DNA from: Microbacterium arborescens
GTDB taxonomy: Bacteria; Actinomycetota; Actinomycetes; Actinomycetales; Microbacteriaceae
Direction: 5' to 3'
Length of the DNA stretch: 64,000 bases
Assembly (NCBI RefSeq): GCF_030369635.1
Contig: NZ_CP128474.1
Coordinates: 124,001 to 188,000, forward strand
The notes beneath the pieces were generated by a model, which worked only from the letters and a program-made list of their open reading frames with translations, made no database searches and had not been told where the DNA came from. The position numbers and the translations under genes were made by a program. Shown one piece after another: positions 6,611 to 61,716 of this stretch (positions are counted from its first letter, which is position 1; each line of letters starts with the position of its first letter).

Positions 6611-6691
6611 CGCGATGCAAGGGATCGGGCGCGACACCCCGTCGAACGGCATCCCGCCTCGGCGCGGCGCCCCGCATCCCTTGCATCCGCG
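6611..6691. repeat. Intergenic palindromic element, family 1 (copy in kdpC-kdpD gap)
   Basis: Arms GATGCAAGGGAT (6614-6625) and ATCCCTTGCATC (6676-6687) are perfectly complementary over 12 bp around a 50-base core. A second copy, in the opposite orientation, is at 20855-20932. It sits between kdpC and kdpD and has no U-tract on either side. Confidence 0.75.
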
Positions 6692-6718
6692 CCCGCCCGC
6701 CCTCGGGATCGGATGCCG

Positions 6719-7327
6719 TCACCGTGCGACACCGTCCAGCGCCAGGTTCAGTTCGACGACATTCACTCGCGGCTCGCCCAGAAACCCCAGGTCGCGGGCC
6801 GTCGTGTGCGCGGCGACGAGGTCGCGCACCTCCGCCGCCGAGAGCCCGCGCTCGGCCGCGACCCGTGCGACCTGCAGCTCGGCGTATGCCGGCGAGATGT
6901 GCGGGTCGAGGCCCGAGGCTGACGCGGTGACGGCATCCGCGGGGACGTCGGCGACGTCGACGCCCTCGCGGTCGGCGATCGTCGCCCGCCGCTCCTCGAC
7001 CGCGGCGACGAGGTCGGCGTTGTTCGGGCCGAGGTTCGATCCGCTCGACGCCGCGGCGTCGTAGCCGTCGCCGGCCGCCGAGGGGCGTGGCTGGAAGTAC
7101 TGCGGCAGCGCCTCGCCGTCGGCATCCGCGAACGACTGGCCGATGAGCGACGAGCCGACGACCTGGCCCTCGGCGTCGCGCAGCAGCGACCCGTTCGCCT
7201 GCGCCGGCAGCGCGAGACCGATCAGCGAGATGAGCAGGGTGTACCCGACTCCGAGCACGAGGGTGAGAACGATCATCGCGCGGACGGCGACGGCGGAGGT
7301 GCGCAGCGAGGCGCGAGCGGTGGACAT
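6719..7327 (-). CDS. kdpC: KdpC, potassium-transporting ATPase subunit C
   Basis: A 202-residue protein with one N-terminal membrane helix ('[21 protein letters not shown]') and an extracytoplasmic domain holding the family signatures '[18 protein letters not shown]', '[27 protein letters not shown]' and '[17 protein letters not shown]'. KdpC stabilises the complex and takes part in high-affinity ATP binding by the KdpFABC pump. It starts 20 bases after the kdpB stop and is the last structural gene of the operon before a 164-base gap that contains a palindromic element and the kdpD promoter. Confidence 0.95.
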
Positions 7328-7347
7328 GACAGGTCTCCAGACGGGGC

Positions 7348-9525
7348 TCAGAAGCCCGGGATGAGGCTGACGACGAGGTCGATCAGCTTGATGCCGACGA
7401 ACGGTGCGATGACGCCGCCGAGCCCGTACACGACGAGATTGCGGCTCAGGATCGACGAGGCGCTCGCCGCGCGGTAGGCCACTCCCCGCAGCGCGAGCGG
7501 GATGAGCACGATGATGACGATCGCGTTGAACACGATCGCGCTCGTGACGGCGGATGCCGGCGACGACAGCTGCATGATGTTGAGCGCGGCGAGCCCCGGG
7601 AACACGCCCATGAACATCGCCGGGATGATCGCGAAGTACTTGGCGATGTCGTTCGCGAGCGAGAACGTCGTGAGCGCCCCGCGCGTGATGAGCAGCTGCT
7701 TTCCGATGCGGACGATGTCGATGAGCTTGGTCGGATCCGAGTCGAGGTCGACCATGTTGCCGGCCTCCTTCGCCGCCGACGTGCCCGTGTTCATCGCCAC
7801 GCCGACGTCGGCCTGCGCCAGAGCCGGAGCGTCGTTCGTGCCGTCACCGGTCATCGCGACGAGGTGGCCGCCCTCCTGCTCCTTGCGGATCAGGGCGAGC
7901 TTGTCTTCGGGTGTCGCCTCGGCGAGGAAGTCGTCGACACCCGCCTCTCTCGCGATCGCGGCAGCGGTCAGCGGGTTGTCGCCCGTGATCATGACGGTGC
8001 GGATGCCCATCGAGCGCAGCTCCTCGAAGCGGTCGCGCAGCCCGTCCTTGACGACATCCTTCAGGTGGATGACGCCGAGCAGGGTTCCGGTTCCCGACGC
8101 GTCGAGGGTCGCGACGGCCAGCGGTGTGCCGCCGGACTGCGCGATCGCGTCGGCGTGGTGCAGCAGCTCTGCGCGGGCCTCGGTTGAGACCGGTCGCGCC
8201 GACGCGTCGAGCCAGGCGAGCACCGACCCCGACGCGCCCTTGCGCACCTGCGTGCCGTCGGGCAGGTCGACGCCGCTCATGCGCGTCTGCGCCGTGAAGG
8301 CCACCGCGACGGCGTCGCGAGGGAGCTCGGCGACGACATGCTGCGAGGCCGCGAGCTCGACGACCGAGGTGCCCTCGGGCGTCGGGTCGGATAGCGACGA
8401 GAGGGATGCCGCGCGGGCGAGGTCGGTCGCGTCGATGCCGGTCATCGCGACGAACTCCGACGCGCGCCGGTTGCCGTAGGTGATCGTGCCGGTCTTGTCG
8501 AGCAGCAGGGTCGTCACATCGCCGGCCGCCTCGACGGCACGACCCGACATCGCCAGGACGTTCCGCTGCACGAGGCGGTCCATGCCCGCGATGCCGATGG
8601 CCGACAGCAGCGCGCCGATCGTGGTGGGGATCAGGCAGACCAGCAGTGCGACGAGCACCGGAATGCTGACGGGGGAGGCGCTGTACGACGCGATCGGATT
8701 CATCGCCAGCACGACCACGACGAAGACGATCGACAGGCTCGCGAGCAGGATGTTGAGGGCGATCTCGTTTGGTGTGCGCTGCCGCGCAGCGCCCTCGACG
8801 AGGGCGATCATGCGGTCGACGAACGTCTCGCCGGGCTTCGACGTGATCCTCACGACGATGCGGTCGGAGAGCACCCGGGTGCCGCCCGTGACGGCGCTGC
8901 GGTCGCCGCCGGACTCCCGGACGACGGGAGCAGACTCGCCCGTGATCGCCGATTCGTCGACCGTTGCGATCCCGTCGACGATGTCTCCGTCGCCCGGGAT
9001 GAGCTCGCCCGCTTCGACGAGGACGACATCTCCGAGCCGGAGGTCGGCCGAGGGCACTTCCTCGGTCGCGGCGCCGCGGGCTGCGGCATCCGTCCGCTCG
9101 TCGTACGAGACGACCCGGCGCGCGGTCGTGGTCGTCCGCGTCTTGCGCAGCGCCTCTGCCTGCGCCTTGCCGCGGCCCTCGGCGACCGACTCCGCCACGT
9201 TCGCGAAGAACACCGTGAGCCACAGCCAGACCGCGATGCCCCACGTGAACCCGGTCGGCACGTCCGTGCCGCCCGAGGTCTCGGGGCCGCCCAGGAACGG
9301 CTCCGCGATCGCGATCGCCGTGGTGAGGGCCGCGCCGATCCAGACGAGGAACATCACGGGGTTCCGCCATTGCGCGGCGGGGTTGAGCTTGCGGAGGGCG
9401 CCGGGGAGGGCGGCGCCGACCTGCTCGAGGCTGAAGGCGCTGCGCCGGCGCGGTGCCGGACTGGCGTCCGGGTCCGCAGACGACGGGCCGGATGAGGGCC
9501 GGGTTTCGGTCAGAGGGGCAGACAT
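7348..9525 (-). CDS. kdpB: KdpB, P-type ATPase subunit of the potassium pump
   Basis: A 725-residue P-type ATPase. The start is the ATG of [16 protein letters not shown], overlapping the kdpA stop as ATGA; the much longer open frame upstream is a shadow of kdpA. Diagnostic motifs are the phosphorylation site '[13 protein letters not shown]', the actuator '[10 protein letters not shown]', the Kdp-type '[15 protein letters not shown]' in the membrane region, '[14 protein letters not shown]' and the hinge '[21 protein letters not shown]'. The 35-residue N-terminal extension rich in Ser, Pro and Ala is slightly longer than usual. Function: ATP hydrolysis driving K+ import through KdpA. Confidence 0.96.
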
Positions 9526-11207
9526 CAGGAGAGTCCTTCGGCGAGGGGGCCCAGGGTGAGGACCGGGAAGTAGGTGAGCGCGGTGATGATGACGACGACG
9601 CCGGCGAGCAGGCCCGCGAACTGCGGACGGTGCGTCGGCAGGGTGCCGGCGCTCGACGGCACGGTGTCTTGAGCGGCGAGCGATCCGGCGAGGGCGAGCA
9701 CGAGCACGATCGGGATGAACCGGCCGAGCAGCATCGCGACGCCGAGCGCCGTGTTGAGCCACGGGGTGTTGGCGGTGAGGCCGGCGAAGGCAGACCCGTT
9801 GTTGTTCGCCGCAGAGGTGAACGCGTAGAGGATCTCGCTCAGGCCGTGGACGCCCGGGTTCCAGATCGAGGTGCCCTCGACGTCGGCGCGGACGGCCGGG
9901 ATGGCGAAGCTCAGCGCGGTGCCGGCGAGCACGAGCGTCGGCGTCACGAGGATGTACAGACTCGCGAGCTTGATCTCGCGGGGCCCGATCTTCTTGCCGA
10001 GGTATTCGGGCGTGCGTCCGATCAGCAGGCCGCCGACGAACACCGCGAGGATCGCGAGCACCAGCATCCCGTACAGCCCCGAACCGACGCCGCCGGGCGC
10101 GATCTCGCCGAGCATCATGTTGAGCATCGGCATCATGCCTCCGAGTGGCGTGAAGCTGTCGTGCATCGCGTTGACCGCGCCCGTCGACGTGAGCGTGGAA
10201 GCGCCGCCGAACAGGGCCGACGCGGCGACGCCGAACCGCGTCTCCTTGCCCTCCATCGCGGCGCCCGCGAGCTGCGTCGCCGCGCCGCCGCCGGACGCCT
10301 CGGCCCACGAGCCGAGGGCGATCGAGGTGAGGAAGATCCCGCCCATGACCGCGACGATCGTGTAGCCCTGGCGATCGTCGCCGACGATGCGGCCGAAGGC
10401 GCGCGGCATGGCGAACGGGATGACGAGGAGCAGCAGGATCTCGAACAGGTTGGTCCACGGCGTCGGGTTCTCGAACGGGTGCGCGGAGTTCGCGTTGAAG
10501 AACCCGCCGCCGTTCGTGCCGAGCAGCTTGATGGCCTCCTGGCTCGCGACCGGCCCGCCCGGGATCGACTGCGCCCCGCCGGCGACGGTCTGCGCGTCGG
10601 TGAATCCGGCGAAGTTCTGGATGACGCCGCCCGCGAGCAGCACGACGGCCGCGACGATCGCCATCGGGAGGAGGATGCGGCCGAGCCCGCGCACGAGGTC
10701 GACCCAGAAGTTGCCGATCGTGCCGGAGCGGCGGTAGGCGAAGCCACGGACGAGGGCGATGGCGACGGCGATCCCGACCGCCGCCGAGACGAAGTTCTGC
10801 ACGGCGAGACCCGCGAACTGCACGGTGTAGCCGAGCGTCGCCTCGGGCGAGTACGACTGCCAGTTGGTGTTGGTCACGAACGAGATGGCGGTGTTGAACG
10901 CGAGGTGCTCGCTCGGTGCGGGCAGGCCGAGGCTGAACGGCAGAAGCGGCTGGATCCGCTGTAGCCCGTAGACGACCACGACGCCGACCAGGGAGAACAG
11001 CAGCACGCCGCGGGCGTAGGCCTGCCAGGTTTGCTCGGTGCGCGGGTCGACGCCGATCAGGCGGTAGACGCCCCGTTCGACGGCGAGGTCGCGCGGCGAT
11101 GTGTAGACGCGGGCGATGTAGTCGCCGACGGGCCGGTACAGCAGGACGAGGATGAGGACGAGGGTCGCGATCTGCAGCGACGCGAACCCGATCTGCGCGG
11201 CATCCAC
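9525..11207 (-). CDS. kdpA: KdpA, potassium-binding channel-like subunit
   Basis: A 560-residue polytopic protein with ten or more hydrophobic helices. The selectivity-filter regions are visible as '[14 protein letters not shown]', '[26 protein letters not shown]', '[15 protein letters not shown]' and '[13 protein letters not shown]', each with the conserved Gly or Asn residues of the KdpA pore loops. The start is GTG, one base after the kdpF stop, giving tight coupling. The length is normal for the family. Confidence 0.96.
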
Positions 11208-11208
11208 G

Positions 11209-11295
11209 TCAGAACCGTTCGGGCCGCACGAGGGCGACGACGAGGTAGACGATGGCGGCGACGGCCAGCACCGCCGCGAGGAGCGAGAAGACCAT
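11209..11295 (-). CDS. kdpF: KdpF, small membrane subunit of the potassium ATPase
   Basis: A 28-residue hydrophobic peptide, [20 protein letters not shown], ending in ALVRPERF. A single helix with a short 'R-P-E-R/K-F' tail is the hallmark of KdpF, which stabilises the KdpABC complex. It ends one base before the kdpA GTG, and its ATG overlaps the stop of another tiny open frame (TGATG). It is easily missed because of its size. Confidence 0.9.
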
Positions 11296-11378
11296 CACAG
11301 CTTCTCGACCCCCCGGGCGATGAGGCCGGCGACGGCGAAGAGCGCGAGGATCGCGGCGAGATAGATGAGGTCGAGCAC
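11295..11378 (-). CDS. 27-residue membrane peptide upstream of kdpF
   Basis: A GTG-initiated frame encoding VLDLIYLAAILALFAVAGLI followed by ARGVEKL: one hydrophobic helix with an acidic start and a basic tail. Its stop codon overlaps the kdpF ATG (TGATG), a junction typical of translational coupling. The position as first gene of the kdp transcript, the coupling and the strong hydrophobic bias support a real gene. I recognise a similar short frame ahead of kdpF in other actinobacteria only from memory. It could be a leader peptide or an additional Kdp subunit. No strong Shine-Dalgarno is seen. Confidence 0.6.
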   Translation of the reverse strand: MLDLIYLAAILALFAVAGLIARGVEKL

Positions 11379-11473
11379 GAGATCAGATGCAACACCCCGT
11401 CGGACGCCGCATCCGTCGTCCTCACGGAATTCATACGGCCTCGCGCCCGCTCCTCACGCCGCCCTCACGGTCT

Positions 11474-11568
11474 CTGGCGATACATCCGTCGGACGGCCGG
11501 AGCTGGTGTCGCCTGGAACGGGGTTCGACGCGTCACCAGCACCACCGGTCCTGCAGATGTATCGCCAG
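11474..11568. repeat. Intergenic palindromic element with 13-bp perfect arms
   Basis: CTGGCGATACATC (11474-11486) and GATGTATCGCCAG (11556-11568) are perfect inverted copies. Inside the 69-base core GCTGGTG and CACCAGC form a second stem. The core carries GGGGTTCGACGCG (11520-11532), also present in the core of the element at 54425, although the outer arms are unrelated. Confidence 0.75.
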
Positions 11569-11600
11569 GCCCGGGCCTCCGGTCGGATCAGGGGGCGGGG

Positions 11601-11816
11601 TCAGGGCGCGAGCGGCGAGGATTCGTCGTCGATGACCCCGATGCCGACGGCGTGGTGGCTCGGCTCCTCGTCCTTCTTCTCGGGAGCCTTGGGCTCTTCG
11701 CCCGGCTCTTTCGCGACGCTGGGCTCTTCGAGCTCCTCCGTCGAGGGCGTCTCGTCGGGTGCGTGCTGGGCGCCCTCGTCGGCGTGCTCGGCCTCGTTGT
11801 CGTGGTGATCGGTCAT
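11601..11816 (-). CDS. Small acidic hypothetical protein
   Basis: A 71-residue, very acidic, probably disordered protein. It starts MTDHHDNEAEHADEGAQHAP and is rich in Glu, Asp, His and Pro. The ATG is preceded by GGAAGGGAG at good distance. No domain is recognised. The short acidic composition resembles small stress or chaperone-associated proteins, but this is only resemblance. It lies on the minus strand 222 bases upstream of the kdp leader gene and divergent from the zinc-finger gene. Confidence 0.6.
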   Translation of the reverse strand: MTDHHDNEAEHADEGAQHAPDETPSTEELEEPSVAKEPGEEPKAPEKKDEEPSHHAVGIGVIDDESSPLAP

Positions 11817-11877
11817 GTCGTACTCCCTTCCACCCTCAGCGTGCGCCGATCCGGCCGTCGATGTCACCGGCTTGACG

Positions 11878-11883
11878 TAGGGT
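11878..11883 (+). promoter_or_regulatory. -10 box of leaderless promoter for the DksA-like gene
   Basis: TAGGGT, six bases before the ATG at 11890. Confidence 0.5.
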
Positions 11884-11889
11884 CGCGGG

Positions 11890-12225
11890 ATGGACCCGGA
11901 AGCGCGACTGCACGAGCGCGAGCGCGAGCTCACCGTGCAGCTCGACCGGCTGGATGCCGACGACGACAGCCTCCGTCACGACCGTGCCGACGCGACAGCC
12001 GATGACGAGCACGACCCCGAGGGCTCGACGCTGTCGGGGGAGTGGCAGCGGGTCGAGGCCCTGCGCCGCGCGGCGCGGGCCGAGCTCGCCGAGGTCGAAG
12101 CCTCGCTCGCCCGCGTCGCCGCCGGAACATACGGGGTGTGCGCGAGCTGCGGCCGCGACATCCCGGTCGAGCGCCTCGAGGTGCGCCCGCACGCGACGAT
12201 GTGCGTCGCGTGCGCTTCGCGCTGA
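11890..12225 (+). CDS. TraR/DksA-type C4 zinc-finger protein
   Basis: A 111-residue protein. The N-terminal half is a charged helical hairpin ('LHERERELTVQLDRLDADDD', then 'ALRRAARAELAEVEASLARV'). The C-terminus carries a four-cysteine zinc finger: Cys84-x2-Cys87 ('CASCGRDIP') and Cys105-x2-Cys108 ('CVAC'). This is the DksA/TraR layout. Family members enter the RNA polymerase secondary channel and modulate initiation, often with ppGpp. Actinobacterial members of this size are poorly characterised, so binding to polymerase is inferred. Probably leaderless. Confidence 0.85.
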   Translation: MDPEARLHERERELTVQLDRLDADDDSLRHDRADATADDEHDPEGSTLSGEWQRVEALRRAARAELAEVEASLARVAAGTYGVCASCGRDIPVERLEVRPHATMCVACASR

Positions 12226-12264
12226 CCCACGCGGGTAGGTGCCCGCGCCGCCCGCGTCCGCGTT

Positions 12265-12339
12265 GAACTTCGGAGAATCACGTGAGATTCGGACGGATGC
12301 GGCGGATCGGTCCGACTTTCGCGCCGATCTCCGAAGTTC
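12265..12339. repeat. Intergenic palindromic element with 12-bp perfect arms
   Basis: GAACTTCGGAGA (12265-12276) and TCTCCGAAGTTC (12328-12339) are perfect inverted copies. The 51-base core has an inner stem TCGGAC/GTCCGA (12289-12315). It lies 15 bases before the -35 box of the ArsR promoter and 40 bases after the zinc-finger gene. No U-tract follows. Confidence 0.75.
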
Positions 12340-12353
12340 GATCGGCCAGGGCA

Positions 12354-12382: not shown

Positions 12383-12383
12383 A

Positions 12384-16715: not shown

Positions 16716-16785
16716 GCGAGAACGTACCCCCGCCGCGAGAACGCACCGTGTGGGGTACGCGCTCGCGGCACCGGTACGCGCTCGC
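16716..16785. repeat. 70-bp palindromic element, family 3 (left copy)
   Basis: Begins GCGAGAACGTACCC (16716-16729) and ends GGTACGCGCTCGC (16773-16785), with a nested near-palindrome inside. A related 70-bp element lies in inverted orientation at 17792-17861, on the other side of the coiled-coil gene. This copy sits between divergently transcribed genes, so it cannot be a shared terminator. Confidence 0.75.
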
Positions 16786-16821: not shown

Positions 16822-17763
16822 ATGAGTGACACGACTTCCGGTGACCTGCACGATGCGGCGCGTGACCGCGCGCGGCGCGACCAGCTGACCGCGCACGCCG
16901 ACGCCGCCCGCGGCCTCGTCGCGCAGCGCGAGCGCGACCTCGCCGAGCTGCAGCAGAAGCTGCGGGTCGAGACCGCCGACGTGCGCCGTCTCGAGCGCTT
17001 CTCGCCGGCGCAGGTGTGGGGTCTCCTCCGCGGCGACATCGACGACAAGCTTGCGGTCGAGCGGGCGGAGCAGCAGGCGGCCGAGCATGCCGTCGACGGC
17101 GCGACCGAGCGGCTCGCGCACGCCCGGGTCGACCTGGCCCGGATCGAGGACGAGATCGCCGCGCTCGGCGACGTGGATGCCGCCTACGCGGCCGCCCTCG
17201 CCCGGCGCGAGCACGAACTGCGGGCCGCCGATCCGGATGCCGCGGCCGAGCTCACGCGGCTCGACTCCGAGGCCGGCGTGCTCAGCGCCGAGGCACGGGA
17301 GATCGCCGAGGCGCGGTCGGCGCTCGAGCGGGCCCAGGAGGCTCTCGGCGCTGCACAGCAGGCCCTCGACTCCGCGGGAGGCTGGTCGACCTATGACACC
17401 TTTTTCGGCGGCGGCATGGTCGCCGACTGGATGAAGCACGACCGCGTCGGACGGTCCGCCCGCGCCTTCACGGTCGTGAACCGGGCGCTCGAGACTCTGG
17501 CGACCGAACTCGCCGACATCGACGCGCCGCCCCTCGCGGGCGTGCAGATCTCGGATTCGCTCGCCGTCTTCGACGTGCTGTTCGACAACGTGATCGCGGA
17601 CTTCATGGTGCGCCAGCGCATCGCCGACGCGCAGGCCGCGGCATCCGATCTTCGCCTGCGTCTCGATGGCCTCGGCGACTACCTCGTCCAGCGGGCGGAT
17701 GCCGTCGAGACGCGCACCGCCGCCCTCCTCGCCCACCGCGAACGTCTCCTTCTCGACGCCTGA
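16822..17763 (+). CDS. Coiled-coil hypothetical protein flanked by inverted elements
   Basis: A 313-residue, Ala-, Arg- and Glu-rich protein. Residues about 10-190 are long coiled coil ('VAQRERDLAELQQKLRVETA', then 'LARIEDEIAAL' and 'REIAEARSALERAQEALGAA'). Then comes a Gly-rich turn 'GGWSTYDTFFGGGMVADWMKHD', followed by more helices with 'VFDVLFDNVIADFMVRQRIA'. GAGGGG precedes the ATG. There is no membrane segment or known domain. The 'W-S-T-Y-D-T-F-x-G-G-G' stretch is the best handle for a family search. Flanking 70-bp elements in inverted orientation are unusual. Confidence 0.65.
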   Translation: MSDTTSGDLHDAARDRARRDQLTAHADAARGLVAQRERDLAELQQKLRVETADVRRLERFSPAQVWGLLRGDIDDKLAVERAEQQAAEHAVDGATERLAHARVDLARIEDEIAALGDVDAAYAAALARREHELRAADPDAAAELTRLDSEAGVLSAEAREIAEARSALERAQEALGAAQQALDSAGGWSTYDTFFGGGMVADWMKHDRVGRSARAFTVVNRALETLATELADIDAPPLAGVQISDSLAVFDVLFDNVIADFMVRQRIADAQAAASDLRLRLDGLGDYLVQRADAVETRTAALLAHRERLLLDA

Positions 17764-17791: not shown

Positions 17792-17861
17792 GCGAGAGCC
17801 TACCGTTCGCGCGAGAGGGCACCGTGGAGGGTGCGGTGTCGCGGCGAGGGTACGTTCTCGC
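17792..17861. repeat. 70-bp palindromic element, family 3 (right copy, inverted)
   Basis: Read on the minus strand it starts GCGAGAACGTACCC (17861-17848), identical to the left copy, continues with the similar CGCCGCGA and CGCACC blocks, and closes with GGTAGGCTCTCGC. Both copies are 70 bp. It lies between convergent genes. Confidence 0.75.
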
Positions 17862-20854: not shown

Positions 20855-20932
20855 CGCGGATGCAACGAATCGGTCACAACGCGCCGCGTGCGGATGCCGC
20901 GCCGCGGCGTGTCGGTGACGGACCCTTGCATC
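20855..20932. repeat. Intergenic palindromic element, family 1 (second copy)
   Basis: On the plus strand it opens CGCGGATGCAA (20855-20865) and closes CCCTTGCATC (20923-20932). On the minus strand it aligns along its length with the element at 6611-6691, sharing GATGCAAGGG, CGACAC, CGGCATCC, CGGCGCG and TTGCATCCGCG in order. It lies between the tandem paralogues. Confidence 0.75.
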
Positions 20933-20965
20933 GGCGTCCCCGGCACCCGGCACCGGGGCTCCGGA

Positions 20966-26537: not shown

Positions 26538-26559
26538 TCCGGTCCGGTCCCGTGCACCT

Positions 26560-26806
26560 GTGCCGTGCGCAGGTTGAGTGTCGCGCGGAGGCTCCTCGCG
26601 GCGGGTCCGGGACGTTCATCCTGTAGACGGGACGCGCAAGCCCCGAGCCCGACCCGGTGTGATGGCCGAGCGCGAGACGCAGCTCGGTGTCGAATCCGGG
26701 CCGCCGGGGTCGCGTGAACAGGCTCTTAAGCAGGCCGGCTTCAGGCTGAGCGTGCCGTGAGCGGGGCGACGGTGCCGTCCGACGGCTTTCAGCCTGCGTA
26801 CGGCAC
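26560..26806. repeat. Palindromic region between apt and the dehydrogenase (diverged family 2 element)
   Basis: The 335-base gap holds no convincing gene. GTGCCGTGCGCAGGTTGA (26560-26577) pairs with TCAGCCTGCGTACGGCAC (26789-26806) at 16 of 18 positions. CAGGCTGA at 26742-26749 can pair with the same right arm, and GACGG/CCGTC forms a small inner hairpin near 26770. The arm pattern GTGCCG...CAGGCTG resembles the elements at 54425 and 54588. Confidence 0.55.
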
Positions 26807-26824
26807 CCGGGACCGCGGGCCGAG

Positions 26825-26845
26825 CCGTGCCCGAGACCGGCACGG
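26825..26845. terminator. Hairpin between convergent apt and dehydrogenase genes
   Basis: CCGTGCC-(7)-GGCACGG with a perfect 7-bp stem, followed by tandem GGCACGGGCCC units. There is no U-tract, so termination is inferred from its position 27 bases after the convergent dehydrogenase stop. Confidence 0.4.
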
Positions 26846-26872
26846 GCCCGGCACGGGCCCGGCAGCGGCGGC

Positions 26873-34879: not shown

Positions 34880-35761
34880 TCAGGCTACGGCGGCGTAGAG
34901 CGTGTTGTTCCACGGGTCGTCGAACGCGACCGTGCGGCCGTCGTCGCGAACGGCGACGCCGTGGTGGCGGAGGCGTTCGGCGAGAGCGCCGAGGTCGTCG
35001 GGCGTCGGCAGGGCGAGATCGACGCGGCCGAGGCCGAGCGCCGGCATGCGGGGCCCTGCGCCCCGAGAGTTCCAGACATTCATCGCCATGTGGTGGTGGT
35101 AGCCGCCGGCGCTGACGAAGAGGGCCTGATCGCCGAGCGCCGCGGTCGTGTCGAAGCCGAGGGCGCCGATGTAGAACGCCCGGGCCGTCGCCACGTCGCC
35201 GACGGAGAGGTGCACGTGCCCGACGCGGGCAGGATCGGACGGTGCGGAGCCGGCGCTGCCCGCGCCGTCGAGCGCCGCGGGGTCGAGGTGCTCGCGCAGG
35301 AAGGCGTTGGGGTCGAGGTAGAGCGTGTCCATCTCGACCTGCCCATGGGTCCACGACCAGGTGCTGCGATCGCGGTCCCAGTAGAGCTCGATGCCGTTGC
35401 CCTCGGGGTCGGTGAAGTAGAACGCCTGGCTGACGAGGTGGTCGGCGCTGCCGGTGAAGGTCGTCGGGGCGTGTCGGGCGACGCTGTAGAGCGCCGCGGC
35501 GAGGGCCGACTGCGTCTCGAAGAGGATGGCGGTGTGGAAGAGGCCCGCCGATCCGGCGGCCGCGTGGCGGAGCGCGGGCTCGTGGCGCAGGATCACGACC
35601 GGCCGGCGGGCGCGCCCGAGCGTGACGGTGTCGCCGTCGGCGGCGAGGACCTGCAGGGTCACGACGTCACGGTAGTAGCGCGTCATGCCGTCGAGGTTGC
35701 CGACCAGCAGGGTGACGGCGCCCATCGTCGTGGCATCTGCGAGCTTCTCATTCATACGCAT
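34880..35761 (-). CDS. Two-domain VOC family (catechol-dioxygenase-like) protein
   Basis: A 293-residue protein with two VOC domains: 'MGAVTLLVGNLDGMTRYYRDVVTLQVLA', then 'ARVGHVHLSVGDVATARAFYIGALGFDTT'. Metal-ligand candidates are His in 'GLFHTAILFE', Glu in 'DPEGNGIELYWDR' and His in 'HVHLSV'. The 'GGYHHHMAMNVWNSRGAG' stretch is typical of proteins often named catechol-2,3-dioxygenase-like. Two starts are possible, 35761 and 35755; the first is nearer to a G-rich stretch. Its role is unknown, and it is not obviously linked to the ceb operon, which converges on it. Confidence 0.82.
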   Translation of the reverse strand: MRMNEKLADATTMGAVTLLVGNLDGMTRYYRDVVTLQVLAADGDTVTLGRARRPVVILRHEPALRHAAAGSAGLFHTAILFETQSALAAALYSVARHAPTTFTGSADHLVSQAFYFTDPEGNGIELYWDRDRSTWSWTHGQVEMDTLYLDPNAFLREHLDPAALDGAGSAGSAPSDPARVGHVHLSVGDVATARAFYIGALGFDTTAALGDQALFVSAGGYHHHMAMNVWNSRGAGPRMPALGLGRVDLALPTPDDLGALAERLRHHGVAVRDDGRTVAFDDPWNNTLYAAVA

Positions 35762-35821
35762 ACACAACCCCCGCCCCCCCAATGTCATTCCCCCCGCCGC
35801 GTGGCCGCGAGTGCACGACAC

Positions 35822-35890
35822 AACGCCGAGTGCACGACATCCTCGCGTCTGAAAGTCGGACAGTCGACGGGATGCCGTGCACTCGGCGTT
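35822..35890. repeat. Intergenic palindromic element with 21-bp arms
   Basis: The left arm 35822-35842 (AACGCCGAGTGCACG...) and the right arm 35870-35890 are complementary at 20 of 21 positions around a 27-base core. A further direct copy of GAGTGCACGACA precedes the left arm at 35809. It lies between the NCS2 permease gene and the VOC gene, both on the minus strand. No U-tract. Confidence 0.75.
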
Positions 35891-40448: not shown

Positions 40449-40460
40449 GCTGGTTGACCC

Positions 40461-40560
40461 GCGGCCTGCCGTAACTCCTCAAGAACACGTCCAGCTCGGA
40501 CGTCGCAGCCGACGTCAGGCTGGAGACGGCCCGAAATCGAGGAGTTGCGGCGGGCCGCGC
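40461..40560. repeat. Intergenic palindromic element with 21-bp arms
   Basis: Arms 40461-40481 and 40540-40560 are complementary at 19 of 21 positions; the inner part is AACTCCTC/GAGGAGTT. The 58-base core forms its own nested stem through TCCAGC/GCTGGA and GACGTC/GACGTC. It lies between convergent genes, so termination in both directions is possible, but no U-tract is present. Confidence 0.75.
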
Positions 40561-49554: not shown

Positions 49555-49612
49555 GGCGCACTTTCGCGCTTCGGCCGCAGTTCGAACTGCGCCTCATCCA
49601 TGCAAGTGCGCC
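49555..49612. repeat. Intergenic palindromic element with inner perfect palindrome
   Basis: Outer arms GGCGCACTT (49555-49563) and AAGTGCGCC (49604-49612) are perfectly complementary. Centred between them is GCAGTTCGAACTGC (49577-49590), a perfect 14-bp palindrome. It lies between convergent genes. Confidence 0.7.
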
Positions 49613-53533: not shown

Positions 53534-53583
53534 CCACACTCGAAAGCCAGACCACACTCGAAAGCCAGACCGCACTCGAAAGA
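53534..53583 (+). repeat. 18-bp tandem repeat upstream of nagB
   Basis: CCACACTCGAAAGCCAGA occurs twice head to tail (53534-53551, 53552-53569), followed by a partial third unit starting CCGCACTCGAAAG (53570-53582), directly before the nagB ribosome site. An array of 2.7 units in the 87-base gap may be regulatory or a recent slippage product. Confidence 0.85.
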
Positions 53584-53593
53584 AGGAAGAGCC

Positions 53594-54424: not shown

Positions 54425-54499
54425 GTGCCGCGAACAGGCTGGGCGGTGCGACCCCGCCCTCCAGGTGGGGTTCGACGCGGCTGAGCCTGTTTGCGGCAC
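54425..54499. repeat. 75-bp palindromic element, family 2, copy 1
   Basis: Arms GTGCCGCGAACAGGCT (54425-54440) and AGCCTGTTTGCGGCAC (54484-54499) pair at 15 of 16 positions around a 43-base core containing GGGGTTCGACGCG (54467-54479). A second copy, same length and same orientation, starts 163 bases on. The surrounding 468-base gap between nagB and purM shows no gene. Confidence 0.85.
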
Positions 54500-54587: not shown

Positions 54588-54662
54588 GTTCCGCGAACAG
54601 GCTGGGCTGTGTCGCCGCGCCTTGCTGGCGACCGTTGATCCAGCTGAGCCTGTTTACGGCAC
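54588..54662. repeat. 75-bp palindromic element, family 2, copy 2
   Basis: Arms GTTCCGCGAACAGGCT (54588-54603) and AGCCTGTTTACGGCAC (54647-54662) pair at 13 of 16 positions, again with a 43-base core. The ends are nearly identical to copy 1 while the cores have diverged, apart from a GTG(T/C)CG-like block. Confidence 0.85.
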
Positions 54663-55966: not shown

Positions 55967-55972
55967 CCCCCT

Positions 55973-57433
55973 ATGTGCGGAATCGTCGGAATCGTCGGGC
56001 AGTCGCCGGCGAACCAGGAGATCTACGACGCCCTCCTGCTGCTGCAGCACCGCGGCCAGGACTCGACGGGAATCGCGACCGCTGAGGACAGCGGCGTCTT
56101 CCACATCTTCAAGGCCAACGGCCAGGTCCGCGAGGCGGTCCGTACGCGCGACATGCGTTCGCTGCTCGGCAACATCGGGCTCGGTCACGTGCGCTACGCC
56201 ACGAAGGGCACCGCGTCGAGCGAAGAAGAGGCTCAGCCCTTCTACGTCAACGCACCGTATGGCATCGTGCTCGTGCACAACGGCAACCTGACGAACACCC
56301 GCGAGCTGACCGACGAGCTGTTCAGCAAGGACCGCCGCCACCTCAACACCAGCTCCGACACCGAGCTGCTGGTCAACGTGCTCGCCAACGAGCTGCAGAC
56401 CACGATCTCGGGTCTCGATCTCGACCCCGATCAGGTGTTCCAGGCCGTCGAGCGCGTGCACGAGCGCGTCGAGGGCTCGTACGCCGCCATCGCGCTGATC
56501 GCCGGTCACGGCCTGCTCGCTTTCCGCGACCCGTTCGGCATCCGTCCCCTCATCCTCGGTACGCGCCGGGCTGAGAACGGCCGCGACGAGTGGACGGTCG
56601 CCTCCGAGTCGCTCGTGCTCGAGAACGGCGGCTTCGAGGTCGTGCGCGACGTCGAGCCCGGCGAAGCCGTCTTCATCGACGCCGACGGCACCCTGCACAC
56701 GCGCCAGTGCGCGCAGCAGACGCAGCTCGCGCCGTGCTCGTTCGAGTACGTGTACCTCGCTCGTCCCGACTCGATCATGAACGGCATCTCGGTGTACGAG
56801 GCTCGTCTGCGCATGGGTGAGCGTCTCGCCGACACGATCGCCAAGTACACGCCCCAGGGTGCGATCGACGTCGTGATGCCGATCCCCGACTCGTCGCGTC
56901 CGGCGGCCATGCAGGTCGCGCGCAAGCTCGGCATCGAGTACCGCGAGGGCTTCTACAAGAACCGCTACGTCGGCCGCACGTTCATCATGCCCGGCCAGGC
57001 TGTGCGCAAGAAGAGCGTGCGCCAGAAGCTCAACGCGATGTCGAGCGAGTTCAAGGGCAAGAACGTGCTCCTCATCGACGACTCGATCGTGCGTGGCACG
57101 ACGTCGAAGGAGATCATCCAGATGGCTCGGGATGCCGGGGCCAAGAGCGTGACGTTCGCGTCGGCCGCGCCGCCGGTGCGCTACCCGCACGTGTACGGCA
57201 TCAACATGCCCTCGCGTCATGAGCTGATCGCGCACGACCGGACGATCCCCGAGATCGCCGAGGAACTCGGCTGCGATTACCTTGTGTACCAGGAGATCGA
57301 CGACCTCAAGGCAGCGATCGTCGAGGGCACGGACATCGTCGACCTCGACATGAGCTGCTTCGACGGCCGCTACGTCACCGGAACTGTGAGCGACGAGTAT
57401 CTGAACTGGGTCGAGGGCACCCAGCAGTCGTGA
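55973..57433 (+). CDS. purF: PurF, amidophosphoribosyltransferase
   Basis: A 486-residue enzyme. The N-terminal nucleophile is Cys2 (MCGIVGIVGQ), exposed after methionine removal, so there is no propeptide as in the Bacillus type. The glutaminase domain shows 'LLLLQHRGQDSTGIATAE', 'GLGHVRYATKGTAS' and 'VLVHNGNLTN'. The PRTase domain shows 'DVVMPIPDSSRPAAMQVARKLGI', 'FYKNRYVGRTFIMP' and the PRPP loop 'VLLIDDSIVRGTTSKEII'. First committed step of purine synthesis. It forms an operon with purM; its stop overlaps the following MFS gene (GTGA). Confidence 0.97.
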   Translation: MCGIVGIVGQSPANQEIYDALLLLQHRGQDSTGIATAEDSGVFHIFKANGQVREAVRTRDMRSLLGNIGLGHVRYATKGTASSEEEAQPFYVNAPYGIVLVHNGNLTNTRELTDELFSKDRRHLNTSSDTELLVNVLANELQTTISGLDLDPDQVFQAVERVHERVEGSYAAIALIAGHGLLAFRDPFGIRPLILGTRRAENGRDEWTVASESLVLENGGFEVVRDVEPGEAVFIDADGTLHTRQCAQQTQLAPCSFEYVYLARPDSIMNGISVYEARLRMGERLADTIAKYTPQGAIDVVMPIPDSSRPAAMQVARKLGIEYREGFYKNRYVGRTFIMPGQAVRKKSVRQKLNAMSSEFKGKNVLLIDDSIVRGTTSKEIIQMARDAGAKSVTFASAAPPVRYPHVYGINMPSRHELIAHDRTIPEIAEELGCDYLVYQEIDDLKAAIVEGTDIVDLDMSCFDGRYVTGTVSDEYLNWVEGTQQS

Positions 57434-58653
57434 CGTCACTCTGGCGCGGACGCGTCCTCGCTTTCCTCGGCGTCATCCTCGTCGCCTTCTCGCTGCGCTC
57501 TGCCGTCGCGTCACTGTCGCCGATCCTCACCGAGATCGACGCCGATCTGGGCGTGCCGTCGTGGGTGGCCGGGCTCATCGGGGCGGCGCCGCCGGTGTGT
57601 TTCGCGGTGTTCGGCGTCGTCACCCCTATTCTCGAGCGTCGGTTCGGCCTGCAGCGGCTCGCGGTCGCGGCGATGGTCGTCGCCGCGGCGGCCCTCCTCG
57701 GCCGTGCGCTGGCACCGGATGCCGGCACCCTGTTGGTCGCCACGACCGTCCTGTTCGCCGCCATCAGCACCGGAAACGTCGTGCTGCCGCCGCTGATCAA
57801 GACGTACTTCCCCGACCGCGTCGGGACCATGACGGCGGTCTACTCGACGATGCTCGCCGTCGCCGCGTTCGTGCCCCCGCTCGTCGCGGTGCCGATCGCC
57901 GACACGGCGGGTTGGCGGTTCTCGCTCGGCCTGTGGTCGGTCTTCGCCGTGCTGGCGGTCGTTCCCTGGCTCGTGACGCTCCGCCGGTCGCGCATCGCCG
58001 CAGCGGCCGCGGATGCCGCGGTGCCTCCCCCTCCGTCTCCGAACGTGCTCGGCCGGCTGGTGCGGCTGCCGATGGCGTGGGCGATCGCGATCACGTTCGC
58101 GGTGTCGGCATCCAGCGTCTACGCGTCGTTCGCGTGGCTGCCGATCATCCTCGTCGACCTCGCGGGTGTGTCGCACGCCGCCGCCGGGTCGCTCCTCGCG
58201 CTCTTCGGCGCCATGGGGCTGCCGTGGTCGATCCTCGTGCCGCTGGTCATCACGCGCTGGCAGCGGCTCGGCGCGATCTACGCGATCGCGGCGTCGGCCG
58301 GGCTCGTCGCCGTCGCAGGACTGCTCATCGCTCCGGGGTCAGCCGTCGTGCTGTGGGTCGTGCTGCTGGGCACGCCTCAGATGCTGTTTCCGGCGGCGCT
58401 GGTGTTCATCCAGCGCAAGACGAGGACCCACGAGGGCACGGTCGCCCTCAGCGGATTCGCCCAGAGCGTCGGCTATGCCGTGGCCGCCGTGTTCCCCATC
58501 TCGTTCGCGCTGCTGCACGAAGCGACGGGCGACTGGACGGCCCCGCTCATCATGGTCGGTGTGCTGATGCTCGCGGCGATCCCTGCGGGGATCGTCGTCA
58601 CACGTCCCCACACGATCGAGGACGAGTGGGAGCAGCGCCACGGCGCATGGTGA
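57430..58653 (+). CDS. MFS transporter of the CynX/NimT type
   Basis: A 407-residue transporter with 12 helices: 'FLGVILVAFSLRSAVASLSPILTEIDADLGVPSWVAGLIGAAPPVCFAVFG' (CynX/NimT opening), 'FAAISTGNVVLPPLIKTYFPDRVGTMTAVYSTML' and 'ALSGFAQSVGYAVAAVFPISFALLHEATGDW'. Relatives carry cyanate, 2-nitroimidazole or purine-related compounds. Its GTG overlaps the purF stop, so it is cotranslated with purine genes, which makes a nucleobase or purine precursor a reasonable but untested guess. Confidence 0.85.
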   Translation: MTSLWRGRVLAFLGVILVAFSLRSAVASLSPILTEIDADLGVPSWVAGLIGAAPPVCFAVFGVVTPILERRFGLQRLAVAAMVVAAAALLGRALAPDAGTLLVATTVLFAAISTGNVVLPPLIKTYFPDRVGTMTAVYSTMLAVAAFVPPLVAVPIADTAGWRFSLGLWSVFAVLAVVPWLVTLRRSRIAAAAADAAVPPPPSPNVLGRLVRLPMAWAIAITFAVSASSVYASFAWLPIILVDLAGVSHAAAGSLLALFGAMGLPWSILVPLVITRWQRLGAIYAIAASAGLVAVAGLLIAPGSAVVLWVVLLGTPQMLFPAALVFIQRKTRTHEGTVALSGFAQSVGYAVAAVFPISFALLHEATGDWTAPLIMVGVLMLAAIPAGIVVTRPHTIEDEWEQRHGAW

Positions 58654-58662
58654 TGAGCCCGG

Positions 58663-58839
58663 TCAGGCCTTCTCGTCCTCGTACTCGTCGGAGTACTGGT
58701 CAGCCCACTTGTCGACGTACTGATCGTCGTCGGAATGAGCGAGCTCCTTCTCGAGCGAGGAGAAGTTGACATTGTAGGTGTCGTACTTCAGCTCACGTGC
58801 GATCTTGGTGTGCTTCGCCTTTTGACGGCCACGCCCCAT
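58663..58839 (-). CDS. DUF3073 protein
   Basis: A 58-residue protein, MGRGRQKAKHTKIARELKYD, followed by 'TYNVNFSSLEKELAHSDDDQYVDKWADQYSDEYEDEKA'. The basic 'GRGRQKAKxTKIARELKY' head and acidic tail define DUF3073, found across actinobacteria, of unknown function. GAGGGGG at good distance selects the ATG at 58839 over one five codons earlier. Convergent with the MFS gene and divergent from the universal stress gene. The basic head suggests nucleic-acid or ribosome binding. Confidence 0.92.
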   Translation of the reverse strand: MGRGRQKAKHTKIARELKYDTYNVNFSSLEKELAHSDDDQYVDKWADQYSDEYEDEKA

Positions 58840-58987
58840 GCGAGACCCCCTCATTTCTGAGTCACGGGCTGTTCAGCGGTGCCCGGAGCATTTCACGATC
58901 CGGCGATGTGCCGGGGAAGAGTAGCATTAAGACTAACACGGGGGCCCCGCGCCATCGCCGGTGCCGCCGCTCAGACAGGGGGCGACC

Positions 58988-59518
58988 ATGGCCGATCAGC
59001 ACTCCGCGGGCGACGAGAGCCGCCTTCCGCCTACGCCGGTCATCGTGGGGGTCATCCCCGGGCAGTCGCCTCGCGTCATCATCGAGGCCGCTCGATACGC
59101 GTCGATGCTCGGGGTCGGACTCATCGTGGTCCACGTCGACGTCACGCGGTTCGTGACCTACGAAGACCCCGACGGTTACGTCCACACCGCACCCATCGAT
59201 CTCGGGGTGGTTTCCAGCGCGGCGCAGCTCGAGCAGATCCGCGCCTCGGCGGCGGAAGCGCTGGCATCGTCGTCGGTCGAGTGGACGGTGCATCAGCTCG
59301 TCGGCGACCCGGCGCTCGCGATCAAGCACCTCGCCGACCGCCTCGACGCGAAGCTGCTCGTGGTCGGGACGCGTCGCCGCGGCATCGGCGAGTCGATCCG
59401 TGAGTTCTTCACCGGATCGGTGGCTGCGCGGCTCGCGCATCGTCAGCAGCGCCCGATCCTCGTGGTGCCGCAGGGGCAGACCGCCGCAGACGACGAAGAC
59501 CTCTGGCCCGAGCCCTGA
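58988..59518 (+). CDS. Universal stress protein (UspA family)
   Basis: A 176-residue single-domain Usp: 'PVIVGVIPGQSPRVIIEAARYASMLGVGLIVVHVDV', 'IKHLADRLDAKLLVVGTRRRGIGESIREFFTGSVAARLAHRQQRPILVVPQG'. The G-x-x-x-x-G...G-S stretch is the ATP-binding signature, so this is the nucleotide-binding type. AGGGGG precedes the ATG. It is transcribed divergently from the DUF3073 gene across a 148-base gap that holds only a small CCGGC/GCCGG hairpin at 58900-58914. Confidence 0.92.
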   Translation: MADQHSAGDESRLPPTPVIVGVIPGQSPRVIIEAARYASMLGVGLIVVHVDVTRFVTYEDPDGYVHTAPIDLGVVSSAAQLEQIRASAAEALASSSVEWTVHQLVGDPALAIKHLADRLDAKLLVVGTRRRGIGESIREFFTGSVAARLAHRQQRPILVVPQGQTAADDEDLWPEP

Positions 59519-59562
59519 GGCGGGCGGGCAGAGGTCCTCGTCGCGGGGTGGCGCTGCGCGGG

Positions 59563-60171
59563 TCAACCTCGCAGAGCCTGCAGCAGGTCCGTGCGAGCGC
59601 GGGTCAGCGTGTCGATGAGATCGTCGACGACGGATGCTGCGACGTCGCCCTCTCGCGCGACGTGCGACCGCAGGTCGGCTTTCACGTTCGCCCGGAACTC
59701 GGCGATCGCGGCATCCGCGCGCTGCGCTTGGGCCCGGGCCTCGGCGCGCGGGTTCTCGGGCGCCGAGGGACGCGTGGCCGTCTCGTGGTCGACGTTCGCC
59801 GCGGCGGCGAGGTCGGCTTGCAGGCTCTTCATGGCGGCGCGGACGCTGCCGCGCACTTCGTCGGCGATGAGACGGATGCTGTCGGCCAGGCCTGCCTGGA
59901 TGCCGTCCAGATCGTGCCGCCGGGCTGAGAGCTCGTCGCGGCCGGCGTCCGTGATCTCGTAGACGGTCTTGCGGCCGTCGACGGTCTTGGTCACGAGTCC
60001 CTCGTCTTCGAGCTTCGCGAGGCGGGGGTAGATCGTGCCGGCGCTCGGAGAGTAGGTGCCGCCGGTGCGTTCGGTGAGAGCCTGCATGAGGTCGTAGCCG
60101 TGCCTCGGCGACTCGTCGAGCAGCGACAGCAGGTAGAGGCGCAGGTCGCCGTGGGAGAAGACGGGCGGCAT
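59563..60171 (-). CDS. PadR-family repressor paired with DUF4097 protein
   Basis: A 202-residue PadR regulator: 'FSHGDLRLYLLSLLDESPRHGYDLMQALTERTGGTYSPSAGTIYPRLAKLEDEGLVTKTVDGRKTVYEITDAGRDELSAR', the full PadR winged helix, followed by a long Ala-rich helical C-terminus. It starts two bases after the DUF4097 stop and is cotranscribed. It probably represses the pair through the twin palindromes upstream of the DUF4097 gene. PadR-DUF4097 pairs are usually linked to envelope stress. Confidence 0.9.
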   Translation of the reverse strand: MPPVFSHGDLRLYLLSLLDESPRHGYDLMQALTERTGGTYSPSAGTIYPRLAKLEDEGLVTKTVDGRKTVYEITDAGRDELSARRHDLDGIQAGLADSIRLIADEVRGSVRAAMKSLQADLAAAANVDHETATRPSAPENPRAEARAQAQRADAAIAEFRANVKADLRSHVAREGDVAASVVDDLIDTLTRARTDLLQALRG

Positions 60172-60173
60172 GG

Positions 60174-61133
60174 TCAGCGCTCCTCGTGGCGCTGCACGTC
60201 GTCTTCGGTCACCGGGGCGGCGACGGCCGTCGGCGGCGCGGAGTCTGCCGGCGTCGCGGTATCCGTTTCGCCCGAAACCGCCGGTGCGGTCGTTGAGGTG
60301 ACATCGGCGGGCGCGGCGGCGGACCGACGCAGGACCGTCAGGTCGCCGGAGACCGAGTTGGTCCGGACATCGACGAACGAACCGCTGAGCTCGCCGGTCG
60401 AACCGGTGAAGCTCGTGAGCGGACCGGCGCCCTGGCCCGAGCGCACGACCCCGTCGATGAGCACGCGCCCGCTGACGCTCCGCACCTGGTAGTTCGCGGG
60501 CAGGCTCTCGTCGAGACGCACGGTCGCGTCGCCGCCGACGGTGTGAAGCGTGATCGACTGGATCGGTCCCGATGAGTCGACGAGCATGGCACCGGACACG
60601 GTGTCGACGTCCGCGGCCCGAAGGGCGCCGATCGCTGCGACGTCGCCCGACACCGATTTCGCGGTCAGTGCTCCGGTCAGCTCGCGGATCTGCACGTCGC
60701 CCGAGACCGCGTTGGCGTTCACGTCGCCGGTGATGCCGTCGACGATGATGTCGCCGGAGACGGTGTTGATGCGGGCGTCGGCCTCGAGCCCGGAAACGAG
60801 CGCGCTCGCACTGACGACGCCGAGCGTGAGGTCGGTGCCGCGGGGGACGGCGACGCTGATCTCGGCCTTCGGCCCGGACGATCCGAAGTTGCGGAACACC
60901 TGCGTGAAGTTGTCCCACCGCAGCTGCGGGTGGTCGATCTCGACGACGTCGCCCGTCGCCTCGATGCGCAGATCCTTGCCGGTGACGGCGTGCACCTCGA
61001 TGCGGACGCCGGGTTCGTCGTGGGCGACGATGTCGATCTGCCCGCCGACCATGCTCACCTTGAGCTTGCGGATGTCGTCGATGTCGATCACCCGCGTCTC
61101 GTCGGGGTGGACGATCCATTTCTGCAGTGTCAT
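60174..61133 (-). CDS. DUF4097 beta-solenoid-like protein
   Basis: A 319-residue protein dominated by short beta repeats: 'INTVSGDIIVDGITGDVNANAVSGDVQIRELTGALTAKSVSGDVAAI', 'VDTVSGAMLVDSS', 'VRSVSGRVLIDG' and 'TNSVSGDLTVL'. The recurring 'x-V-S-G-D-x' turn is typical of DUF4097/adhesin-like beta-helices. There is no signal peptide or membrane helix, so it is cytosolic unless partner-bound. The C-terminal 50 residues are low-complexity Ala/Thr/Pro. AGAGGG precedes the ATG. Confidence 0.85.
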   Translation of the reverse strand: MTLQKWIVHPDETRVIDIDDIRKLKVSMVGGQIDIVAHDEPGVRIEVHAVTGKDLRIEATGDVVEIDHPQLRWDNFTQVFRNFGSSGPKAEISVAVPRGTDLTLGVVSASALVSGLEADARINTVSGDIIVDGITGDVNANAVSGDVQIRELTGALTAKSVSGDVAAIGALRAADVDTVSGAMLVDSSGPIQSITLHTVGGDATVRLDESLPANYQVRSVSGRVLIDGVVRSGQGAGPLTSFTGSTGELSGSFVDVRTNSVSGDLTVLRRSAAAPADVTSTTAPAVSGETDTATPADSAPPTAVAAPVTEDDVQRHEER

Positions 61134-61173
61134 GGCGTTCCCTCTTGTCAGGCGACGGTTGCCGCGAATGGTT

Positions 61174-61215
61174 CGCGATATATCGCGTGTGGCGAAGATA
61201 ACACGATATATCGCG
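61174..61215 (-). promoter_or_regulatory. Twin PadR operators upstream of DUF4097-padR
   Basis: CGCGATATATCGCG (61174-61187) is a perfect 14-bp palindrome. A second copy with one mismatch (CACGATATATCGCG) lies at 61202-61215, 28 bp centre to centre. TTATCT between them on the minus strand may be part of the promoter. The AT core stands out in this GC-rich sequence. Confidence 0.85.
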
Positions 61216-61295
61216 ATTCGTCCAGGGGTGCCGAGCCGCGTCGGAGGGTTCGGGGGCTTCTCGCAGGGAGGGCGGGCGCCTCCCCGGGAAAAGCA

Positions 61296-61325
61296 GAACG
61301 CCCCCACCCGCAGGTGGAGGCGTTC
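61296..61325 (-). terminator. Intrinsic terminator of the 54-residue membrane protein gene
   Basis: GAACGCC-CCACC/GGTGG-GGCGTTC stem (12 pairs, one mismatch, 4-base loop), followed on the minus strand by CTGCTTTTC. One of the few hairpins in the window with a short U-tract. Confidence 0.75.
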
Positions 61326-61339
61326 GCGCAGCGCGGCGG

Positions 61340-61504
61340 TCAGACGCGCTTGTTGCCGCTGATCACTCGGAAGAGGAACGCGATGAGCGCGATCACACCG
61401 ACGATCAGGGCAACCCAGAGCAGCCAGCTCAGGGCGCTGTTCAGGCCACTGACGATCGCGAGCACGATCGCAACGACGATGATGATGATGAGGAAGATGT
61501 TCAT
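61340..61504 (-). CDS. Small two-helix membrane protein
   Basis: A 54-residue protein, 'NIFLIIIIVVAIVLAIVSGLNSALSWLLWVALIVGVIALIAFLF', ending RVISGNKRV: two membrane helices with a short loop. AGGAG at ideal distance selects the ATG at 61504, twelve codons inside the longest open frame. It resembles the small DUF-type membrane proteins (YtxH/lmo0937-like) often induced by stress, but no domain is certain. It has its own terminator. Confidence 0.75.
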   Translation of the reverse strand: MNIFLIIIIVVAIVLAIVSGLNSALSWLLWVALIVGVIALIAFLFRVISGNKRV

Positions 61505-61667
61505 GGGGGCTCCTTGTCTGTCTCCCAATGTCCGTCCCACTGCGAGACGTTCCGGCCCCGTGAAGGGCTGAAGGCAACGTTAGAGAATGCCGAGCGTGAG
61601 CGCCGAGGCCTTGACGCAGCATCCGCCCCGGTGGTATCCGCGTCTGCACCCCTGCCCGCCCGCTGAC

Positions 61668-61716
61668 CCGACGCGAATGGTCGTTTCAGCGCCGGGTGTG
61701 GTGCCATTCGCGTCGG
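61668..61716. repeat. Intergenic palindromic element with 13-bp perfect arms
   Basis: CCGACGCGAATGG (61668-61680) and CCATTCGCGTCGG (61704-61716) are perfect inverted copies around a 23-base core. The 317-base gap between the divergent genes at 61504 and 61822 shows no gene. Because the genes diverge, this element is not a terminator for either. Confidence 0.75.

Follow-up and report, generated by a model that had tools for sequence, protein, structure and literature searches.

Introduction

Repetitive extragenic palindromic (REP) repeats are usually linked to a REP-associated tyrosine transposase (RAYT), miniature inverted-repeat transposable elements (MITEs) are small non-coding elements with inverted ends that insert precisely, duplicate their target site and have a related full transposon, the ends of Tn7-, Mu-, Tn5053- and IS21-type elements are inward-facing arrays of sites of roughly 19–22 bp, and integron attC sites, which have a cognate tyrosine integrase, adjoin accessory genes and keep their structure while their sequence varies. 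REP sequences, REPINs and bacterial interspersed mosaic elements (BIMEs) are described as short intergenic palindromes with many copies, species-specific families and clusters or dimers in both orientations (PMC3733652, PMC3116915); the main text of PMC3733652 contains none of the strings 'actinobacteri', 'arthrobacter' and 'mycobacteri'. Here we analyze thirteen palindromic elements, proposed in an earlier note, from a window of 64,000 nucleotides (G000:C1:124001-188000) in a single-contig, 3.37 Mb Microbacterium genome deposited as M. arborescens; one window protein places it in this genus, with 99% identity to its counterpart in Microbacterium sp. AG238 and 83% to that of M. arborescens. 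Our literature search, which left subscription papers outside its coverage and so does not show absence from print, found no description of such elements in Microbacterium.

Like REPs, REPINs and BIMEs, the Microbacterium elements are short intergenic palindromes with many copies, species-specific families, and clusters and dimers in either orientation. They differ in that no Y1 transposase was found with them, in that some families are arrays of direct and inverted motifs at a fixed pitch of 19–20 bp, and in that the arms of different families are wholly different from one another. Small size, lack of coding capacity and inverted ends recall MITEs, but no target duplication was seen (in a non-systematic comparison of 12 window gaps) and the number of units varies. 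Inward-facing arrays are shared with Tn7/Mu/Tn5053/IS21-type ends, but the Mu-type transposase family PF09299 was found neither in the window genome nor in G116, a second array-bearing genome. Constant structure with varying sequence and a position next to accessory genes are shared with attC sites, but matching flanking elements are missing from seven of the eight inserted segments that we checked. In our view the elements are probably small palindromic repeats of REP/MITE type, dispersed in several families and unusual in the design of their units.

Results

Throughout, G numbers denote genomes, with G000 the window genome, and L numbers denote compared stretches; elements are named by their proposed start. 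A simple codon model supplied the gene calls, and all 13 elements lie within predicted gaps, none in a gene, as the earlier note had stated. Local BLAST groups 16716 with 17792, 6611 with 20855 and 54425 with 54588; after this pairing about nine unrelated families stand. Family A is a 95-bp palindrome at 11474..11568. Family B comprises 16716..16785 and 17792..17861, which are 77% identical on opposite strands, and family C comprises 6611..6691 (arms GATGCAAGGGAT, adjoining kdpC) and 20855..20940. The two D palindromes (54425..54499 and 54588..54662) are 75% identical, and single elements represent E (12265..12339), F (the 35822 element, 35808..35890), G (the 40461 element, 40460..40559, with arms AACTCCTCA in a convergent gap), H (49555..49612) and I (the 61668 element, 61665..61719, in a divergent gap).

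Members of these families recur across the genome, are mostly intergenic and vary from one species to the next; close relatives have or lack them at sites where the genes remain well aligned. In 400 kb of other stretches, local BLAST found copies of A, B, D, E (weak, in L034 and L031), F and H (a homologue in L034), and only self-matches for 40461 and 61668, with arms similar to those of 40461 visible in L050. Family A occupies nine genome loci, eight at E ≤ 0.0014 and one more by local BLAST; one of the nine (3031 kb) is degenerate. Family B occupies about two dozen, and its unit with up to two mismatches has 108 forward and 98 reverse matches as compared to 35 and 18 for the reversed control. 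B loci also cluster: 15 of 24 have a neighbor within 15 kb against an expected 4.45, and 4 of 20,000 simulations, with uniform placement of a hand-picked locus list, came as high as the observed 15.

Could GC-rich gaps generate such palindromes by chance? We dinucleotide-shuffled the gap of each element 200 times and compared the scores. For seven of the 13 (6611, 11474, 12265, 20855, 35822, 40461 and 61668) no shuffle reached the score of the element; the score was reached by 5 of 200 shuffles for 54425, 11 for 16716, 21 for 17792, 71 for 54588, 111 for 49555 and all 200 for 26560. Despite these scores 16716, 17792, 54588 and 49555 are real repeats, because homologues exist elsewhere. As a set, the elements stand far above shuffled sequence: the 5.2 kb of window gaps hold eight pairs of perfectly matching arms, each 12 bp or longer, as compared to 0.10 after shuffling (and two in the 58.7 kb of coding DNA of the window), and 464 kb of the window genome holds 48 stems scoring at least 40, a few of them ordinary terminators, as compared to 0.8. 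Arms of 12 bp reach 1.53 per kb of gap in the window and 0.47 in other stretches. Shuffled gaps thus do not give equally many arm pairs, the outcome that the earlier note had named as fatal to its proposal, and most of its thirteen palindromes are real; together with the 19-bp repeat peak described below, these data leave chance with next to no probability as an account of the set. Chance does account for 26560..26660, which has no significant hairpin. By eye, the gap of 26560 contains diverged pieces resembling the D elements 54425 and 54588, and the region 26538-26872 is an insertion hot spot, the length of the gap ranging from 30 bp (G163) through 9.1 kb (G212) to 25.0 kb (G148) and 25.6 kb (G331).

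In some families, a motif of 10–14 bp is arrayed head to head at a constant spacing. Element 16716 consists of four copies of the motif GCGAGAACGTACC or a variant, two per arm and 19 bp apart; the F element has three CGAGTGCACG copies, the first two 19 bp apart; and in the H element the 9-mer TGCGCCTCA is repeated at 19 bp (49588 and 49607). In family B, all 11 unit spacings below 100 bp are 19 bp (among 96 of the 108 forward units, those displayed). We took 172.6 kb of gap DNA, drawn from 65 stretches, and counted exact 9-mer direct repeats at all offsets between 9 and 45. The counts peak at offset 19 (34 repeats); offset 20 gives 17, and other offsets yield 0 to 9, or 2 to 17 where they are multiples of 3, repeats that probably stem from missed genes. 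Coding DNA gave 9 repeats at offset 19 as compared to 5 to 15 at neighboring offsets not divisible by 3. Among the 33 repeats listed for offset 19, 22 fall within palindromes, as compared to 3 of 16 at offset 18; for 20 of the 33 an inverted copy stands no more than 110 bp away, the chance figure being 312 of 1320. Thus in B, F, H and some families of other species, an element is an inward-facing array of a short motif, with one to five copies per arm at a pitch of 19 or 20 bp. REPINs have a GTAG or CGTC tag at the hairpin foot; here a CGAG/TGAG tag at the outer end, suspected by eye, is not enriched (15 of 73, as compared to 18 of 105 coding palindromes).

The 19-bp peak did not appear in 19 other genera (3 repeats at offset 19, in stretches from contig starts with gene calls trained on the window genome). 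Palindromes persist there: the gaps of these genera hold 22 in 82.6 kb, those of the window genome 30 in 54.0 kb and those of 40 Microbacterium species 37 in 93.7 kb. Palindromes as such are therefore not special to Microbacterium. Among other Microbacteriaceae genera, other palindromic families are visible at L248 7316 and 9386, L262 886-1104 and L259 8677, lacking the 19-bp peak; one family from these genera reads GGGTTGAGGAGG...GTCTCGAAACCC.

A regular pitch would fit protein-binding sites that serve the cell, such as operators or chromosome-organizing sites copied to many gaps: 19–20 bp is near two helical turns, and a conserved motif with a variable spacer is what such an array might show. 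However, related species have different motifs, a single genome carries several families side by side and elements are lost quickly, which makes a cellular role of this kind quite unlikely.

Motifs vary among species and expand in bursts. A pattern for F occurs in 18 of 119 Microbacterium genomes, with 1 to 23 forward matches each (overlapping ones counted apart), and in none of 196 genomes from other Microbacteriaceae genera; its reversed control gave zero in all but one of the 119. In G116, the motif CGAGTGAGTATTCG has 168 forward matches as compared to 0 to 2 in six relatives, where it does not rise above both-strand controls except in G229 (6 as compared to 3). Across 21 G116 stretches, 11 of them chosen at known matches, we found 36 arrays, one within a predicted gene; wherever a gap holds units in two orientations these face inward (10 of 10), the other gaps holding a single orientation only. 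An apparent strand bias in G116 (168 forward and 510 reverse matches) was probably produced by the variable-gap search pattern itself, as the sampled arrays number 21 forward and 15 reverse. Two gaps that G116 shares with its sister G283 hold 5+4 and 5+3 units in G116, as compared to about one per arm in G283, a difference by growth or shrinkage; four-unit arrays occur at other G283 sites (L227 and L229). An F-type element of G148 (L116 16898-17015) has one arm of four tandem units of an altered motif, CGAGCGGACGG, facing an unchanged CGAGTGCACGG, a motif perhaps under replacement.

We compared 12 window gaps with up to five relatives: G229, which is of the same species as the window genome, G331, G148, G163 and G212. 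Turnover is rapid. 11474 is missing from G229, which carries an additional D copy in the 54425 gap; G331 lacks 49555 and 61668; G212 lacks 6611, 40461 and 49555; G148 lacks 17792, 40461, 49555 and the D pair; and G163 lacks 6611, 20855, 40461, 49555, the D pair and both B elements. Among the six genomes 49555 occurs only in the species of the window. Other elements survive in part or in altered form: 11474 is kept in G163 and G212, 20855 in G212 and G331 with half remaining in G148; the arms of 12265 are partly decayed in G163 and G212; 40461 is diverged but paired in G331, with 3.4 kb of other DNA at its site in G212; and G163 has a diverged version of 61668. On the earlier note's other stated test, orthologous gaps lacking any conserved pairing, the outcome is therefore mixed, since several gaps lack the element and 35822 is kept in all five relatives. 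Alignments break at the element gaps: 9 of 12 as compared to 3 of 24 other gaps for G163 (p 0.0004), and 9 of 12 as compared to 2 of 24 for G212 (p 0.0001).

One function for such palindromes would be to end transcripts, as bidirectional terminators or 3' stabilizing hairpins that lack U-tracts in a GC-rich actinobacterium and are kept for their pairing. Many elements indeed lie only a few bases 3' of stop codons, and convergent and tandem gaps are relatively rich in them: 44 classified stems fall into 25 tandem, 15 convergent and 4 divergent gaps, yet divergent gaps make up 18.5 of 47.3 kb of gap DNA. Retained copies of 35822, 12265 and 40461 are also more conserved than their flanks (for 12265, 0.88 as compared to 0.76-0.78 in G163 and G212; for 40461 in G331, 0.70 as compared to 0.45). 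By contrast, 11474 is no more conserved than its flanks (0.65 as compared to 0.89 in G163 and 0.86 as compared to 0.86 in G212), many orthologous gaps have no such hairpin, sequence families recur at unrelated loci, and many G116 gaps hold single-orientation arrays. As the earlier note observed, 16716 and 61668 lie in divergent gaps and U-tracts are almost absent: nine of the 13 elements were tabulated and each has 0-4 T per 12 bases on either side, and for 45 of the 48 stems neither 12-base flank contains more than 4 T, unlike an intrinsic terminator with its T-run.

Pairing itself gives a divided answer. In 40 distinct 59-bp F elements from nine genomes, among the matches listed, the middle motif, which the search pattern does not require, is conserved at 0.90-1.00 at eight positions, with two others reaching 0.70 and 0.62. 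Covariation is absent from the spacer positions (z -1.8 to 2.0); relative to shuffled sets, spacers of the two direct units have a slight excess of similarity (z 2.2), which spacers of facing units lack (z 0.0). Family A (11 copies) has a covariation of 0.165 as compared to 0.106 in shuffled sets, above all 500 of them, and at most 0.100 in slid controls; this favors a transcript-end role, but such covariation can arise from related copies in the absence of selection. With none in F spacers and a modest excess in A, selection for pairing is therefore not the general rule that the earlier note had suspected. On another of its suggestions, structured RNA, no match to an Rfam family reached the gathering score. 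Taken together, we regard transcript-end hairpins as an unlikely explanation of the families.

We then asked what lies between elements of the same family. A 313-amino-acid accessory gene with no Pfam family (16822..17763, + strand) separates the two B elements, 17792 lying downstream of it, and is absent from this site in G163 and G212. The single B element of G212 reads as a hybrid: 17 of 18 informative sites fit the left copy and then the right copy of the window pair, and 15 of 16 fit the M. arborescens pair in the same way (34 of 50 and 58 of 65, respectively, with flanks included). Among 17 loci with homologues of the gene, B elements stand on both sides only in L131 (AG238, the species of the window) and L132 (M. 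arborescens). At 471-482 kb, a 10.2-kb operon encoding a peptide-type ATP-binding cassette transporter, a LacI regulator, a flavin adenine dinucleotide (FAD) oxidoreductase and a glycoside hydrolase family 5 (GH5) cellulase is bordered on each side by an A element; in G163 the genes and the element are both missing, and G212 has one A element. With flanks included, a single crossover accounts for 50 of 55 sites; inside the G212 element it accounts for 21 of 22, as compared to 20 of 22 if the right copy is taken by itself, which leaves the B case as the one clear hybrid. The third gene, 34880-35755, stands between F elements in G148; G163 and G212 lack the gene and have a single element.

These three loci would fit integron-like cassette sites, with cassettes moving between palindromes that act as recombination sites. 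Against such a system, the seven other inserted segments checked lack matching elements at both borders, the genes between same-family pairs are ordinary, and the B hybrid is explicable by ordinary recombination between repeats; we reject a general cassette system as very improbable.

We searched for an agent of dispersal. The earlier note listed REPIN-like repeats mobilized by a transposase among its possible readings, and in kind this stands: they are dispersed, intergenic, patchy and quick to turn over. Spread by a RAYT has in its favor this general resemblance to short, intergenic, palindromic, many-copy repeats. It is already contradicted by the absence of Y1_Tnp (PF01797), the domain that the note proposed to look for, from the window genome up to E 10 and by its presence in only one of 119 genomes of the genus at E 0.001; this makes a RAYT extremely improbable, unless the agent has been lost or has diverged too far for PF01797. 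Mu/Tn7-type ends are likewise not supported, PF09299 occurring in one of 14 genomes (G042), in a search whose 14 control genomes were silent too. Phages and plasmids are not evident carriers of the sequences compared with them, A, F and a G116 array: F and the G116 array have no phage match, A matches only tail genes at E 0.4, and F has one plasmid match at E 0.9.

Two further repeats in the window are set apart from these families. An AT-rich palindrome at 61173-61216 (TCGCGATATATCGCG...CGATATATCGCGA) looks like an operator, and similar palindromes occur in G148 and G212. An 18-bp tandem repeat around CCACACTCGAAAGCCAGA lies at 53534-53590.

Discussion

Together, dispersal, turnover and unit design point to REP/MITE-like repeats. 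We infer that a DNA-processing or DNA-binding protein recognizes, or once recognized, each motif by its sequence and spreads or holds the family. Slippage between neighboring units may alter their number, and copies would persist in short gaps behind genes where they do little harm, some perhaps kept by selection. Two copies of one family could then recombine, removing or admitting the genes between them.

Several observations weigh against this interpretation. The pitch sample includes orthologous stretches of close relatives, in which a single element was possibly counted several times; only 5 of 17 offset-20 repeats lie within scored palindromes, 12 of the 17 come from a single G116 stretch, and the 40 other Microbacterium species alone give 17 repeats at offset 19 (7 stretches) and 14 at offset 20 (3 stretches). 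Just 9 of 73 palindromes in the combined sample contain an exact 9-mer repeat at offset 19, and the unit design therefore does not cover every family, many having one unit per arm or diverged units; within the window it is evident in B, F and H but not in A, C, D, E, G or I. Alignments break more readily across longer gaps, and for G229 the breaks (2 of 12 as compared to 0 of 24, p 0.10) are not significant alone. In the 12 gaps, with both anchors found, we saw no clean filled and empty site with a target duplication, although the comparison was not systematic, and filled gaps differ from relatives in their flanking bases too. Only two of 22 informative sites in the A element of G212 are left-type, one of them at its left end, and the A crossover therefore rests mainly on flanks. 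The 35822 element is more conserved than its flanks in G331 (0.91 as compared to 0.69), which a purely selfish repeat would not need. Finally, searches for PF01797 and PF09299 revealed no agent.

As a more specific and tentative possibility, the elements may form an undescribed class in Microbacterium: head-to-head arrays of a 10–14 bp motif at a pitch of 19–20 bp, in which the motif is replaced by lineage while pitch and inward layout stay constant, spread by a novel DNA-processing protein and serving as points of exchange for accessory genes.

For REP/MITE-like repeats as we read them, these elements suggest that the sampled genomes of a large genus sustain a REP-like life style almost without RAYTs, in which spacing is seemingly more constant than sequence. 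As G116 and G283 differ in unit number at the same sites, growth or shrinkage of arrays is directly testable in this pair. In the biology of Microbacterium, the elements mark sites of gene gain and loss.

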